Assembly (NCBI GenBank): GCA_947589115.1
Contig: CANPZP010000010.1
Span: 1 to 39,467 of the forward strand
From: Candidatus Gastranaerophilales bacterium
GTDB taxonomy: Bacteria; Cyanobacteriota; Vampirovibrionia; Gastranaerophilales; Gastranaerophilaceae
Length of the DNA stretch: 39,467 nt
Reading direction: 5' to 3'
Part shown: piece by piece, positions 26,239-39,467 of the stretch
How the letters are laid out: the number at the start of each line of letters is the position of its first letter
How positions within the stretch are numbered: position 1 is the stretch's first letter
Translations under genes and position numbers: made by a program
The notes under the pieces: generated by a model
What the model saw: the letters and a program-made list of their open reading frames with translations, nothing else
Told to the model about the DNA's origin: nothing
Database searches by the model: none

Positions 26239-26468
26239 TTCGAATAGTTTATTTCTTTATATAGTAAATCCTATTAACACTCTAATTGGGTGTTGGGATG
26301 AAAAATCCTTGCGGATATTGGGATAAGAACCTTTTATTAATCTAAAGGTTTAGATACCGATATTAACCTTTTAATATAGAAAAATGCATCTAAATATGGA
26401 TGAGCTTCCATGCCCGGGCATGTAATATGAAGATATAAGAGGTATTTACAGGGAGCGCAGGTGTGTAT
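26239..26468 (+). ncRNA. Structured leader RNA upstream of the response regulator
   Basis: The ~220 nt before the response regulator contain many pairings. These are AACAC/GTGTT (26276-26280 with 26290-26294), AACCTTT/AAAGGTT (26328-26334 with 26344-26350), ATGGA/TCCAT (26396-26400 with 26407-26411) and the 14-nt perfect palindrome CATGCCCGGGCATG (26409-26422). A second AACCTTTT at 26365-26372 can also pair with the AAAGGTT at 26344-26350, so two mutually exclusive hairpins are possible. The GC-rich palindrome stands out in AT-rich DNA. I match it to no known riboswitch class. It is a candidate cis-regulatory leader or small RNA. Confidence 0.5.
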
Positions 26469-27179
26469 ATGAGAAGAACTTTAGACTTTAATAAAAAAAT
26501 CAAAATTGTTTTGATTGATGACAATTATGAACACTTAATGGGGATAAAGGAATTAGTTAATTTGGAAACTAATTTTGAGGTAGTCGCAACTGCAACAAAT
26601 GCAAATATCGGTATAAATTTCGTAAAAAGATTTCAGCCGGATTTAGTCTTAATGGATATAAATATGCCGGAAAAAGACGGATTAACGGCTATAAGTGAAA
26701 TAGAGAACTTGGGATTAGGGGTAAAAATTATTGCATTAACCGGGTATGATGACTCTGATTTAATTTTTAGAGCCATGAAAATAGGTGCAAAGGGCTATAT
26801 TTTAAAGACGATGGCATCTGCCCAGTTAATTTATGCTATTGAAGAAGTTATGCAAGGAAAAATTTATCTTCCCTCCGGACTTTCATCAAGATTTTTTGAA
26901 TATTTCCAAAAGACATTTAAAGAAGAAGCATCTAATAATACATCAGGAGAAAATCTGCTTCAATACTTAACTCAAAGAGAAGAAGAAGTGCTTGAATTAC
27001 TTACTCAGGGTGTTACATATAAAGGTGTTGCTTCTCAATTATTTATCAGTGAAACAACGGTTAAAACACACGTTAATAATATATTCCAGAAATTACAGGT
27101 TAATGACAGAACACAAGCCGTTTTATATGCAATAAATAACGGGTTTACAAACAGAAAGAAATTAAAAATAGCAATATAG
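26463..27179 (+). CDS. NarL/LuxR-family response regulator
   Basis: This 238-residue protein has an N-terminal receiver (acidic pair at Asp19/Asp20, phospho-acceptor Asp65 in LVLMDINMPEKDG, Thr93, Lys115 in YILKT) and a C-terminal LuxR HTH (LTQREEEVLELLTQG, then ISETTVKTHVNNIFQKL). It would be phosphorylated by the adjacent kinase and bind DNA as a dimer. The start could be this GTG with GGGAG upstream or the ATG two codons later (26469) with CAGG; I cannot decide. It forms an operon with the kinase, 29 bp apart, behind a structured leader. Confidence 0.9.
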   Translation: MYMRRTLDFNKKIKIVLIDDNYEHLMGIKELVNLETNFEVVATATNANIGINFVKRFQPDLVLMDINMPEKDGLTAISEIENLGLGVKIIALTGYDDSDLIFRAMKIGAKGYILKTMASAQLIYAIEEVMQGKIYLPSGLSSRFFEYFQKTFKEEASNNTSGENLLQYLTQREEEVLELLTQGVTYKGVASQLFISETTVKTHVNNIFQKLQVNDRTQAVLYAINNGFTNRKKLKIAI

Positions 27180-27208
27180 AATGACTTAAAAATATTCTCG
27201 GACATATT

Positions 27209-28483
27209 ATGAAAAATAAATATAATACTCTAAGACAATATATATATGAATATTCACAAAGAGAATACAGAAAAAAGACCGTTAACGGTCTTTTTCGTGC
27301 AATTTTGGAACCTGTTGTTTCTAATCAAAAATTCGAATCGGCAATTTTTTTAAGACTTTTGGACGACGATGAAAAAAAAGCATATATCCAAAGATTATCA
27401 TTTTCGGGTGCTAAAATTTACGGATTTTCACCTTTTGTCGAAAAATTTAACATTAAAGATATTCAAAAAGATGCTTCTTTATGGGGAGATACGGAGTTTA
27501 TAATAGTCACGGGTCAGCGTTATTCAGCCTGTCTTATATGGGATTATTCTCAATCTCAATATCCTGACGCTTCAAACGTATGCTTTTTATATAATTCTAA
27601 AATTATTACTGATATATTAAAATGCATAAATAATAATTCCAATGAAAAATTGGATGAAATAATTAATAAATTCTCTCCGGACAGACGTGAAAATGTTATT
27701 CTAAACAGTTCAATTAATTTTCTTGCCGGAATGTTAAATGATAAAAATGATGAAATAATTTTTTCTTCCATTGAAAAAAATAACTATGATATTGATGATG
27801 AAACAAGAATAACCGCTAAACTGGTAAGTGAAAAAGCAAAATATATATCTCATGAAATTAAAAATAATTTATCAGTTATTAATCTGTATTCAAAAATTCT
27901 TGAAAAAAGACTTCAAAAAATTACCCTTGACGATGAAATTCAAGATTCAATTAATACTTCAGTAAAGAATATAGAAAATGCTTCGGAAAATATATCATCT
28001 CTGATTTCCGATTTAAGGTGTGTTTCGCTTCCGTATTTAATTGAGTTAAATATTAAAGCGGTAATACTGCAAGTTGTACAATCCTGTAAGTTAAAGGCTG
28101 AAAGTAAGGGTGTAACAATTAAAACCGAGGATTTTAAAGATATTATTTTAACAACGGATAAAACAAAATTTGAATGTGCCTTAATGAATATTCTTTATAA
28201 TGCCGTAGAGGCATGTTCTAAGGGATGTGAAATAAAAATCAGTTGTAAAGAAGAAGAGAATAGGTTAAAAGTTATAGTTGAAAATAACGGTGAGATGATA
28301 CCAAAAGAATCCGTTTCTCTTATATTTAAGCCTGAATATACAACAAAAGAAAAAGGCAGCGGTTTAGGACTTGCTATATGCAGGAATCAACTTGAAACAG
28401 TTGGAGGAAACATAAATTTAGTGTCCTCTGACGAAAAAAGTACTATTTTTGAAATAGTACTTCCCTCAAACTCTTCCGTATAA
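27209..28483 (+). CDS. Soluble sensor histidine kinase
   Basis: This 424-residue kinase has no membrane helix. The H-box has His215 in YISHEIKNNLSVINLYSKIL. The N-box is LMNILYNAVEAC, and the G-box is KEKGSGLGLAICRNQLETVG. The N-terminal ~200 residues (FESAIFLRLL, RYSACLIWDYSQSQ) are a cytoplasmic sensory domain I do not identify. It is the probable partner of the preceding NarL-type regulator. The signal is internal and unknown. Only a weak CGGA precedes the ATG, so coupling with the regulator is likely. Confidence 0.9.
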   Translation: MKNKYNTLRQYIYEYSQREYRKKTVNGLFRAILEPVVSNQKFESAIFLRLLDDDEKKAYIQRLSFSGAKIYGFSPFVEKFNIKDIQKDASLWGDTEFIIVTGQRYSACLIWDYSQSQYPDASNVCFLYNSKIITDILKCINNNSNEKLDEIINKFSPDRRENVILNSSINFLAGMLNDKNDEIIFSSIEKNNYDIDDETRITAKLVSEKAKYISHEIKNNLSVINLYSKILEKRLQKITLDDEIQDSINTSVKNIENASENISSLISDLRCVSLPYLIELNIKAVILQVVQSCKLKAESKGVTIKTEDFKDIILTTDKTKFECALMNILYNAVEACSKGCEIKISCKEEENRLKVIVENNGEMIPKESVSLIFKPEYTTKEKGSGLGLAICRNQLETVGGNINLVSSDEKSTIFEIVLPSNSSV

Positions 28484-28545: not shown

Positions 28546-29248
28546 TCAAATTCTGATAGGATAATCGTTTTTTATTTCCCATCCGTCATTTTGAATTAGC
28601 CTCGTACAATAATCTATAGCCCCTCTTTTGCAGGAATTAATATCATTTGTTCTTTTGATTAGTGATGGGGTATAATTACAGGTTGTTCCTCCGCAAATTT
28701 TAAACCAATGTATTCCTTCGTCAGTCTTATCATACTGTTGAATGTTAAAAACAAATATATCCCTTCCTTTATAGTTTGGGCCTTTTTCGCCGTTAACATC
28801 GTATATTAAACTTAGAGAACCATTATATATAAAAAACGGTATAATTAATGAACCATCATTTAGCATATAGACATTGGAAAATGTTTCTTTTTGTCCTCCC
28901 GCAGTTGGTGAATCAATAGTATATTTAATATTTTCAAGTTTTGTCACGGGCAGGCTGCTTAAATATTTATTCCACCAAATATCTAATTTATAATATTCTC
29001 GTTCTGAGTAAGAATCTCTCATAAAGTTGTAGTTATCAATTTGGGCTAATCTGACGGCTTGTGAGAGTGCAGAGTAAAACTTTTTTAATTTTGCGGAAGT
29101 TTCATGCTTTCTGTGATTTGCCATTACAATAGGAACAGTAATTGCCGCTATAATTCCGATAACTACGAGAGTAATTAAAACTTCTGCAAGAGTAAACGTT
29201 TTAACATTTTTGCTACGGGGGGGGGTAGATTTGATGCTTATTTCCCAT
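28546..29248 (-). CDS. Type IV prepilin-like protein, out of frame at a C9 tract
   Basis: With AAGGAG upstream, translation starts at the ATG at 29248 (MGNKHQIYPP) but stops at once, because nine C (coding strand) throw the frame into TAG. With eight (or eleven) C the frame continues as RSKNVKTFTLAEVLITLVVI, GIIAAITVP..., a textbook prepilin N-terminus with Glu5 after FTLAE, then MANHRKHETSAKLKKF and a 190-residue pilin body. Three Cys-containing pieces (KICGGTTCNY, INSCKRGAIDYCTRL) probably form disulfides. The intact body lacking stops argues against an old pseudogene. It is either a phase-variable pilin in the off state or a sequencing error in the homopolymer. Confidence 0.85.
29217..29225. 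repeat. G9/C9 homopolymer tract inside the prepilin gene
   Basis: Nine consecutive G on the plus strand (C on the coding strand) lie ~23 nt after the start codon of the prepilin gene, in a genome of very low GC. Loss of one base restores the frame. Such tracts slip during replication and switch surface genes on and off. Confidence 0.85.
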
Positions 29249-29326
29249 GTTTTTCTCCTTCTTTTCTTTGTGACTTCTTATTTTAACACTTGTTAAAAAT
29301 TTATGCAAGAAGTTTATTTAAGGTTT

Positions 29327-37037: not shown

Positions 37038-39467
37038 ATGAGTAGAAAAAAACAAGCATTTTCGCTTGCAGAATTGCTGATATCACTTTTGGTTACCAGC
37101 ATGATTTTATCTGCAACGGTTCCGACAATTACAAGAAGAGCAAGTTCAATTAACGAAAACCCCTTTAGTTATTTTAACGGAGCAAATGTTAAGGGGGTTA
37201 TTTCTCCGAGCCAGCAATTATGGATTGGAGGTGCCGGTACTATATCCGGTGATTCAAAACTCGGTAAATTAAATATTGTAACATCGAATGATAATAATAG
37301 ACCCGTATCATTCTTTAGCAGGTCAGATACTCAATTAACTTATATAAATAGTCTTTACACTGATGATTCTAATAATATAGGATTTGGCGAACAAGTATTT
37401 AATCAAGATTTAAAGGATGCAGCACATAACGTAGCATATGGGGCATTTGCTCTTCAAAATCTTACAAAAGGTAAATATAATGTGGCTTTAGGCAGTGAAA
37501 CTTTAACGGCAAATACAGAAGGAAGTGACAATATTGCAATCGGGATGGATGCCTTAACAGGTAATACTAAAGGTAATGATAATGTGGCAATTGGCACCAG
37601 TACTTTGTTTGATAATATAGAAGGTTCTAATAATATAGCAATTGGGTCTAGTTCTCAAAGTTATCATTATAAAGGAGATAATAATATTGCATTAGGTGCT
37701 GAATCCCTGAAATCCTTAGTAAATGGTAATAATATTGTAGCAATTGGTTACAATGCTTTAAATAAATATGAAAATGATAAAGATAAAAACATTAATACAG
37801 ACGGAAGTATAGCAATTGGTGCTTATTCTGCCGCTAAACTTAAAAAAAGTGCATCGGGTATAAATACTGTAGTAGGTTATAATTCTCTGGCCTCGGCTGA
37901 AAATACGGGAAATAATACAGCGTTTGGTGCTAATACTTTAGCAGTACAAACAACGGGAAGCAATAATGTTGCAATTGGTAATAATACTATGTCTTTTTAT
38001 AATGGGTCTTATAATACGGCATTAGGTAACGGTGCATTACGAGGGCAAGAGAGATCTCATGGCGGAGACGGTATTAACAGTACAGGTAGCGAAAATACTG
38101 CAATTGGTACATATACACTTGCTGACAATAAAACAGGAAAATATAACACGGCACTTGGTAGTTACGCAATGGCGAATAATCAAACAGGAAGTTATAACGT
38201 TGCTTTAGGTTATAGGTCATTAAATAACGGAAGAGATAATAACAGTATTGCAATTGGTAATCAAGCTTTATATTATTCAATAAATGGCGAATATAATATC
38301 GTAATAGGAGATAATGCGGTATCTGGATATGACGGTAAATCAGGTTATACAAGTAGTACTAATAAAAACATAATTGCGATTGGTAAAGATGCAGGTCGTT
38401 TTTTGAATAAAAGTCAAAAAAGTATAGCAATTGGTCAAAATGCTTTAAGAGGAAAAGAGAATCAAATAATTCCTTCATATAATGCCGGTGGTAATGTTAA
38501 TACAATTGCTATTGGAGATAATGCATTAGCTTCCAGCTTTGATTCTACATATAATACTGCGATAGGAGTAAATGCGCTTGCTGCAAATGAAACAGGAGAT
38601 ATGAATACAGCAGTTGGTGCTTATGCATTAAATCTTGCAAAAGGTGGTTATAATACGGCTGTTGGGTTTGCAGCATTGGGCGGATTTGATCCTTCAGGCG
38701 GCAGTGCTAAAGGTATTGATTATTCCGGTATTGGAAATGCAGCGCTTGGAGCTTATGCATTACAGGATAATGTAAAAGGAAACCATAATGTAGCAATAGG
38801 TTCCAGTGCTCTTGAAACTAATATTAATGGTAATAATAATATCGCAATTGGATATACGGCAGCATATGGAATAAAACAAAGTTCAAATAATATATGTATA
38901 GGTGATGGTACTTGCGAGTCAGATACTTCGTATCAATTTGAATTAGGCGGAGGTACAGACAATTATAGAAATAAACGTAAATATTTATACGGCTCATTGC
39001 CCGGTCCTGATTTAACAGGCGGCAGCTGGACAAACGGTACTTTATATTTTGACGGTTCCTTTTATCCGAGATATGTGGGTGGTACTACCAGAAGGGTTAC
39101 ATCATTATATGTACAAAATTTAAATTATATTTATTCTCAACAAGATTCCGATATAAGATTAAAAAATGTGTCAGGAAATTCAAATATCGGTTTAAAAGAG
39201 ATATTACAAGTACAGCCAAAGAATTTTACATTTAAAAGAGATAAAAATAAAACACCACGTGTAGGTGTAATAGCACAAGATCTTCAAAAGATATTCCCGA
39301 ACTCCGTATCTCAAAATAGCGAAGGTTATTTAACAATAACTAAAGATGAGATGTTCTATGCAATGATTAATTCCATTAAGGAATTATACTCTAAATTCCA
39401 AGATATGATGGCAAAAATATCGGGCTTGGATAAGAGAATAGAACAGCTTGAGAAACAAAATGCCGCC
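37038..39467 (+). CDS. Prepilin / YadA-like head repeats / S74 chaperone fusion (3' partial)
   Basis: This frame is open for 810 codons from the ATG at 37038 (TAGGAAG upstream) to the window end, with no stop. Residues 1-30 are a type IV prepilin N-terminus (MSRKKQAFSLAELLISLLVT), with cleavage before Phe and Glu5. Residues ~110-630 are about twenty repeats of the YadA-head type, N-x-(A/V)-I-G-x-x-A-L (NNVAIGNNTM, YNTAIGVNALAANETGD), which in trimeric autotransporters form a left-handed beta-roll. The C-terminal part has SDIRLKN, VGVIAQDLQKIFP and ITKDEMFYAMINSIKEL, the S74 intramolecular chaperone of phage tail-spikes, which cleaves itself after trimer folding, then a coiled coil. A pilin helix on such a fibre is unusual. 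Confidence 0.85.
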   Translation, partial: MSRKKQAFSLAELLISLLVTSMILSATVPTITRRASSINENPFSYFNGANVKGVISPSQQLWIGGAGTISGDSKLGKLNIVTSNDNNRPVSFFSRSDTQLTYINSLYTDDSNNIGFGEQVFNQDLKDAAHNVAYGAFALQNLTKGKYNVALGSETLTANTEGSDNIAIGMDALTGNTKGNDNVAIGTSTLFDNIEGSNNIAIGSSSQSYHYKGDNNIALGAESLKSLVNGNNIVAIGYNALNKYENDKDKNINTDGSIAIGAYSAAKLKKSASGINTVVGYNSLASAENTGNNTAFGANTLAVQTTGSNNVAIGNNTMSFYNGSYNTALGNGALRGQERSHGGDGINSTGSENTAIGTYTLADNKTGKYNTALGSYAMANNQTGSYNVALGYRSLNNGRDNNSIAIGNQALYYSINGEYNIVIGDNAVSGYDGKSGYTSSTNKNIIAIGKDAGRFLNKSQKSIAIGQNALRGKENQIIPSYNAGGNVNTIAIGDNALASSFDSTYNTAIGVNALAANETGDMNTAVGAYALNLAKGGYNTAVGFAALGGFDPSGGSAKGIDYSGIGNAALGAYALQDNVKGNHNVAIGSSALETNINGNNNIAIGYTAAYGIKQSSNNICIGDGTCESDTSYQFELGGGTDNYRNKRKYLYGSLPGPDLTGGSWTNGTLYFDGSFYPRYVGGTTRRVTSLYVQNLNYIYSQQDSDIRLKNVSGNSNIGLKEILQVQPKNFTFKRDKNKTPRVGVIAQDLQKIFPNSVSQNSEGYLTITKDEMFYAMINSIKELYSKFQDMMAKISGLDKRIEQLEKQNAA

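Follow-up and report, generated by a model that had tools for sequence, protein, structure and literature searches.

A type IV prepilin gene behind a C9 tract in a Gastranaerophilales genome: candidate phase variation in a large set of prepilins

The prepilin locus

The window, i.e. the whole stretch of DNA analyzed here (39,467 nucleotides), belongs to the genome of a Candidatus Gastranaerophilales bacterium (denoted G000 below; 1.82 Mb in 98 contigs) and carries, on the reverse strand, a short leader ORF followed by a prepilin gene (Table 1). A first-pass annotation, made from the sequence alone, described a ribosome-binding site (RBS) and an ATG that lead through nine cytosines into a TAG, with an intact prepilin frame beyond, and both the coordinates and the frame relation are as it described them, the prepilin frame being offset by +1 from the frame of the leader ATG.

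Table 1. Features of the prepilin locus in the window.
Feature	Position	Strand	Remarks
Possible promoter, TTGCAT-N17-TAAAAT	29280..29308	-	weak match by eye, within the conserved upstream block of the paralogues
Shine-Dalgarno sequence, AAGGAG	29255..29260	-	read directly; kept in paralogues; 6 nt 5' of the ATG
Leader ORF, MGNKHQIYPPP, 11 codons	29213..29248	-	ATG at 29248-29246
C9 homopolymer, proposed switch	29217..29225	-	inside the leader ORF
TAG closing the leader ORF	29215-29213	-	just 3' of the C9 tract
Prepilin frame, FTLAEVLITL to stop, 216 codons	28546..29196	-	F codon 29196-29194, stop 28548-28546

After the tract, the prepilin frame contains SKNVKTFTLAEVLITL (- strand), with the FTLxE methylation motif and hydrophobic helix of a type IV prepilin or pseudopilin N-terminus. 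The open body that had been proposed is confirmed, and its start is recognized by PF07963 (N_methyl; 29137-29196, 23.6 bits, above the curated cut-off, E 1.1e-4) and by the generic prepilin domain of NCBIfam, TIGR02532 (17.7 bits vs the cut-off of 16.3). The other NCBIfam matches, led by GspG, are to pseudopilin models and stay below cut-off; when the 216-codon frame was searched by itself against Pfam, no family was returned at E 0.01. Alternative starts were rejected because the prepilin frame contains no ATG, GTG or TTG 5' of the FTL; the window copy likewise has no leader peptide with a start in frame with the prepilin motif, and the two would be joined only at another tract length. At this locus, then, a homopolymer sets the reading frame of a coding region.

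The C9 tract is unusual for DNA with 30% GC, given that only 0.10 C8 matches are expected per shuffled window and that no other C or G run in the window exceeds five bases. The earlier claim that such a tract is improbable in AT-rich DNA thus holds within the window; it does not extend to the genome, where C9 is common (105 placements, counted with overlap). The fold around the tract is not more stable than expected by chance (z = +1.35), and a scan for promoter consensus sequences did not report the TTGCAT/TAAAAT pair seen by eye. Neither counterparts of the window leader from other strains nor prophage-like copies of it were found in genome_contigs or viral_contigs, collections that may omit the window's own or near records, and viral_contigs contains no tract-plus-prepilin pattern. 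On the opposite strand, the prepilin gene has as neighbours a histidine kinase gene and one for a response regulator of the NarL type (window 26463-28483, +).

A family of tract-bearing prepilins

The window gene is one of many. G000 contains 63-64 prepilin matches (64 at E up to 1) and a single match to the prepilin peptidase domain PF06750 (E 1.4e-31). Across 40 genomes of the genus, the prepilin counts are 108 in G032, 63 in G000, 54 in G018 and 3 to 17 in the other 37. The prediction that further tracts would be found in other prepilins is strikingly borne out in G000 and its genus relatives. In the G000 stretches, 75 tracts of at least nine bases were read (the window's own excluded); a prepilin motif follows within 260 nt in 42 of them and in none of the other 33. 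The layout of leader, tract and prepilin recurs in other genomes of the genus. The tract-bearing G000 prepilins, de-duplicated on short flanking sequence, number 33-35 depending on the count.

The common leader of the family reads MENKHQIY before the tract, and the prepilin frame continues as GGKTLA and FTLSEVLITL. A pattern search that let 5-17 bases separate the conserved leader from the downstream flank, likewise conserved, found this leader at 25 places in G000, with C9 at 24, C10 at one, C8 at none and no copy in frame; none of 33 relatives yielded the window-type pattern. A stop adjoins the tract only in those C-tract copies that read GTAGC, the window's included, and a second set of G000 prepilins has G9 directly followed by TAA. 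The tract copies keep their RBS and ATG and are dispersed over the genome, not arrayed. Among the 35 tract-bearing G000 copies listed, 30 have a prepilin frame without any ATG, GTG or TTG; an in-frame ATG or GTG occurs in the other five (L009, L018 at 5032, L022, L024 and L051), where only L024 has a clear in-frame leader (ATG with RBS), L018 at 5032 being borderline. One G000 copy, L050, has no callable ATG.

Conservation of the bodies and of the 5' block

The prepilin bodies differ widely from one another (median pairwise identity in G000, 37%), and all 29 uncut G000 bodies are long open frames, one of them short at 108 codons. These intact bodies are subject to purifying selection, with dN/dS of ~0.17-0.42 in the closest pairs. 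In the prepilin frame, the second codon position is the least variable one both between tract and motif (0.07) and in the body (0.06). A conserved block spans the region between about -95 and the hydrophobic helix, and the leaders are more alike than the bodies, which can mean either constraint or homogenization by gene conversion.

The locus pair L170 and L171 (in G016 and G014, respectively) carries a prepilin that differs at 5 of 636 nt in a surrounding stretch that is 93.7% identical; the prepilin has G9 and is out of frame in both genomes. This near-identity reflects recent exchange or strong constraint.

Reading-frame state of the prepilins

The frame state was determined for 81 prepilins with a callable ATG, out of 82 from ten genomes of the genus that have a tract no more than 70 nt from the motif. 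Out of frame are 76, and five are in frame (out/in: 31/1 in G000, 32/3 in G032, 2/1 in G018, and 11/0 in G003, G012, G014, G016, G025, G029 and G063 together). Most of these genes were found via their tracts, so the set is uninformative on how common tracts are. A tract-agnostic sample was drawn from the whole order, which sits within Candidatus Melainabacteria (NCBI), by a protein search of genome_contigs that gave 80 loci, mostly from Candidatus Gastranaerophilales or Melainabacteria MAGs. Among its 72 distinct prepilins, 14 have a tract (C8-C10 or G8-G12), 13 of them with an RBS and ATG. Of these 13, 12 are out of frame; L189 and L217, which belong to the 13, repeat genes from the G003 and G032 counts. 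Tract-free prepilins in the same sample have an in-frame start in 54 of 58 cases.

When the copies are treated as independent, 5 of 81 in frame gives p = 5e-9. Counted by leader family, with 11 of the 15 families all out, two all in and two mixed, the comparison with one third in frame gives p = 0.40. Because copies share leaders, part of the excess of the OFF state may be ancestry, and because this excess is not significant by leader family, the case made here does not rest on it. Judging from the offsets, most leaders would be in frame at a length of 8 or 11, and the runs sit at 9 or 10.

Variation of tract length

Prepilin tracts range from 8 to 12 bases across the order, and tract length varies both between paralogues and between species. 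In G032, G9, G10 and G11 occur behind like leaders, with both offsets and three copies in frame. In the named MAG RGIG6874, L198 (C8) is in frame and L230 (C9) is out of frame, the two being 74% identical over 277 nt. In G000, the end of contig C68 overlaps the start of C41, so that one locus is read as C10 and C9, respectively; the C10 copy and one C9 copy among the 25 leader matches are probably this same locus, and the pair could result from a sequencing or assembly slip.

Length differences that bring copies into frame are thus seen among paralogues and relatives, and the window's own leader family, with 24 C9, one C10 and none in frame, shows little of the mixture of lengths that the first-pass annotation expected. 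That annotation held that a uniform C9 with all relatives out of frame would refute its reading, and among the paralogues this is in part what is found. The tract length is nine in 31 of 32 tract-bearing G000 prepilins, compared with 12 of 33 other tracts (Fisher 1.3e-7), and the G000 prepilin tracts are also far more often out of frame than the others (Fisher 2.5e-4), the counts for both tests having been entered by hand.

The other G000 tracts include C and G runs of 9-12 bases in surface-glycan genes, some in frame and some out. The genes involved encode family 2 and group 1 glycosyltransferases, SDRs, a KDO-cytidylyltransferase-like protein, a pyruvyl-transferase/TPP-enzyme and a GatZ/KbaZ-like protein. 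Sixteen tracts, hand-picked among the 33 for being preceded by a minimum of roughly 13 codons and followed by a minimum of 60 (the ambiguous L039 excluded), are divided into eight in frame and eight out; the 33 include at least two prepilin leaders cut short where a contig ends (L032 and L040). The 8/8 split in the glycan genes is the classic contingency pattern. Several 9-12 G/C tracts, in frame in some cases and not in others, occur together in the glycan-gene clusters L034 (G000:C24:4800-21600), L044, L058 and L035, and these clusters appear from their sequences to be contingency loci of the ordinary kind, here in a gut lineage without cultured members. MutS is present in G000, and mismatch repair is not obviously lost.

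Proposed phase variation and alternative explanations

The arrangement is most readily explained by slipped-strand phase variation acting on a large set of prepilins whose default setting is OFF, which we consider the probable reading of these sequences. Each member would have its own leader (RBS, ATG and a few codons), a run of about nine C or G, and a prepilin in another frame. During replication, the run would gain or lose a base by slipped-strand mispairing, and at an in-frame length the leader would be joined to the prepilin, so that a signal-bearing prepilin can be made. At the commonest lengths, 9 and 10, almost every member is out of frame, which would set the default to OFF, and most likely only rare cells with a changed run length switch one prepilin on. 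A given cell would then express few or one of the many variants, with heterogeneity from cell to cell, and a role in adhesion or in escape from phages or the immune system might follow.

Phase variation, which the first-pass annotation had proposed for the window gene, accordingly stands as the best single explanation, with the qualification that the window's leader family lacks the length mixture expected of it. The near-uniform length of nine in the G000 prepilin tracts and the lack of any in-frame leader-matched copy weigh against it, since free slippage should give more spread. It stays ahead because of the variation in length and frame among relatives, the mixed frames of the glycan-gene tracts, and the one locus found as both C9 and C10.

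The main rival is family-wide recoding. In known bacterial cases, transcriptional slippage occurs mainly on A/T runs, a point against its use on C and G runs. Recoding in general, whereby the run is held out of frame on purpose and RNA polymerase slippage or ribosomal frameshifting yields some product, seems unlikely, though it is the most serious competitor, and would give low, co-ordinated expression of all members; its specific form, with the C9/G9 as a family-wide device by which tens of prepilins are expressed together at a low, tunable level in every cell, we likewise regard as rather improbable. The same uniformity that counts against free slippage fits recoding well: C9 is retained in 24 of the 25 leader-matched copies although the bodies have diverged, 76 of 81 genus copies are out of frame, the bodies are under selection though hardly any copy is in frame, and the near-identical prepilin of G014 and G016 keeps its G9 out of frame in both. 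In a study on telling phase variation from programmed frameshifts, a conserved frameshift site is treated as a feature of the latter and as not relevant for the former (PMC3711429). The prepilin family has a conserved out-of-frame site before bodies under selection. However, both offsets occur behind like leaders, which a ribosomal shift in one direction does not explain, the window site has no stable RNA structure, the lengths across the order span 8-12, and plainly in-frame copies exist (L024, L092, L167, L175, L129 and L198).

Less probable again is an archive of silent cassettes, in which the conserved 5' block would provide homology for recombination of the bodies into an expressed locus, as in the pilS/pilE system of Neisseria. 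In its favour, diverged bodies stand behind a conserved block that begins about 95 nt before the tract and ends where the body starts, and one G9 leader type is found 159-167 nt upstream of prepilins that have an ATG themselves, as though through an exchange of bodies; yet every copy keeps its RBS and ATG and the copies are scattered, an archive needs no long C run, and like runs occur in surface genes other than pilins. An assembly error at C9 or a decayed gene is very improbable and already largely refuted: G000 is a draft in which many contigs end at or near tracts, but the same length occurs at about 25 places, the same layout is found in other assemblies including named MAGs, and the bodies are free of stops with dN/dS <1.

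The surface biology of Gastranaerophilales, uncultured relatives of Cyanobacteria from the gut, has received little description. If phase variation is the correct reading, three species of the genus with 54-108 prepilin genes keep many of them behind homopolymer switches, nearly all off in the consensus sequence, which would give a commensal organism a large and combinatorial repertoire of pili. The question then becomes whether a cell makes one pilin at a time and whether the choice is made in the DNA, in the RNA or on the ribosome. For annotation, the practical consequence is that such genes in MAGs will be called pseudogenes or given wrong starts.

Relation to known systems

Contingency genes with poly-G or poly-C tracts are well known in Neisseria, Campylobacter and Helicobacter, usually with ON and OFF states mixed among loci. 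The prepilins resemble these genes in tract type and frame switch, and the G000 glycan genes fit the pattern directly; no comparable prepilin repertoire was found in a literature search on such contingency genes. Transcriptional slippage on A/T runs of fixed length, with the body out of frame yet expressed, is reportedly found in IS elements, and mxiE of Shigella is another example of transcriptional slippage. A homopolymer with a body out of frame is shared with the prepilins; unlike in the prepilin family, these runs are A/T, of fixed length and not part of a family of paralogues.

The closest precedent is the gut commensal Bifidobacterium breve UCC2003. In its sortase-dependent pilus loci bbr_0113 and bbr_1889, a G tract divides the first pilin gene into a signal-bearing ORF and a second ORF at which initiation is not active; replication slippage joins the ORFs, several lengths coexist, and the joining lengths are enriched in mice (PMC9187656). 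The shared feature is a tract between a leader ORF and a start-less pilin body in a gut commensal. B. breve differs in being an actinobacterium with sortase pili, two loci and a G tract, whereas here there are type IV prepilins with dozens of paralogues, both poly-C and poly-G tracts and nearly all copies OFF, and slippage is a proposed mechanism.

In Mycoplasma gallisepticum, the length of a GAA repeat in the promoter of each vlhA copy bears on which copy is expressed (PMC6258824). As here, vlhA is a large paralogous surface family with conserved flanks around the repeat; unlike the promoter repeat of vlhA, the prepilin repeat is a coding homopolymer that sets the frame. The G000 prepilin family would work like the B. 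breve pili and vlhA. Phase variation of pili by an intragenic G tract is already known, in B. breve; new are the type IV class, the lineage, the copy number and scale, and the near-universal default-OFF setting. A full-text search for Gastranaerophilales together with phase variation or prepilin found no such report, in a literature coverage outside which most subscription journals fall.

Other arrangements of prepilin leaders and N-termini

Several G000 loci depart from the simple layout. Divergent pairs, in which a C9 and a G9 leader point away from each other, are ~207 nt apart in C8, C11, C16 and C40, and are also present, at somewhat larger spacing, in C14 and C93. At the start of contig C11 (L111 1-66), a prepilin without a tract has a GC-rich upstream sequence unlike the family leader, which is possibly a chimeric contig end.

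A G9 lies 159-167 nt before the prepilin motif in L018, L027, L034 (two cases), L046 and L056, and a G10 at 163 nt in L055. The leader of these loci, of the MFINAKTRTGGG type where read, precedes a prepilin that carries an RBS and an ATG itself. A TTGACT..TATAAT-like promoter, noted by eye, lies between the two, and the G9 or G10 leader looks like a leftover or decoy.

Large proteins with a prepilin-type N-terminus (AFSLAELLISLLVTS) are encoded at window 37044-39467 (+) and in L016, L025 and L054, two of them open for 811 and 837 codons. The one in L025 contains NIAIG-rich repeats and carries, 65 codons from its start, an in-frame G10 tract.
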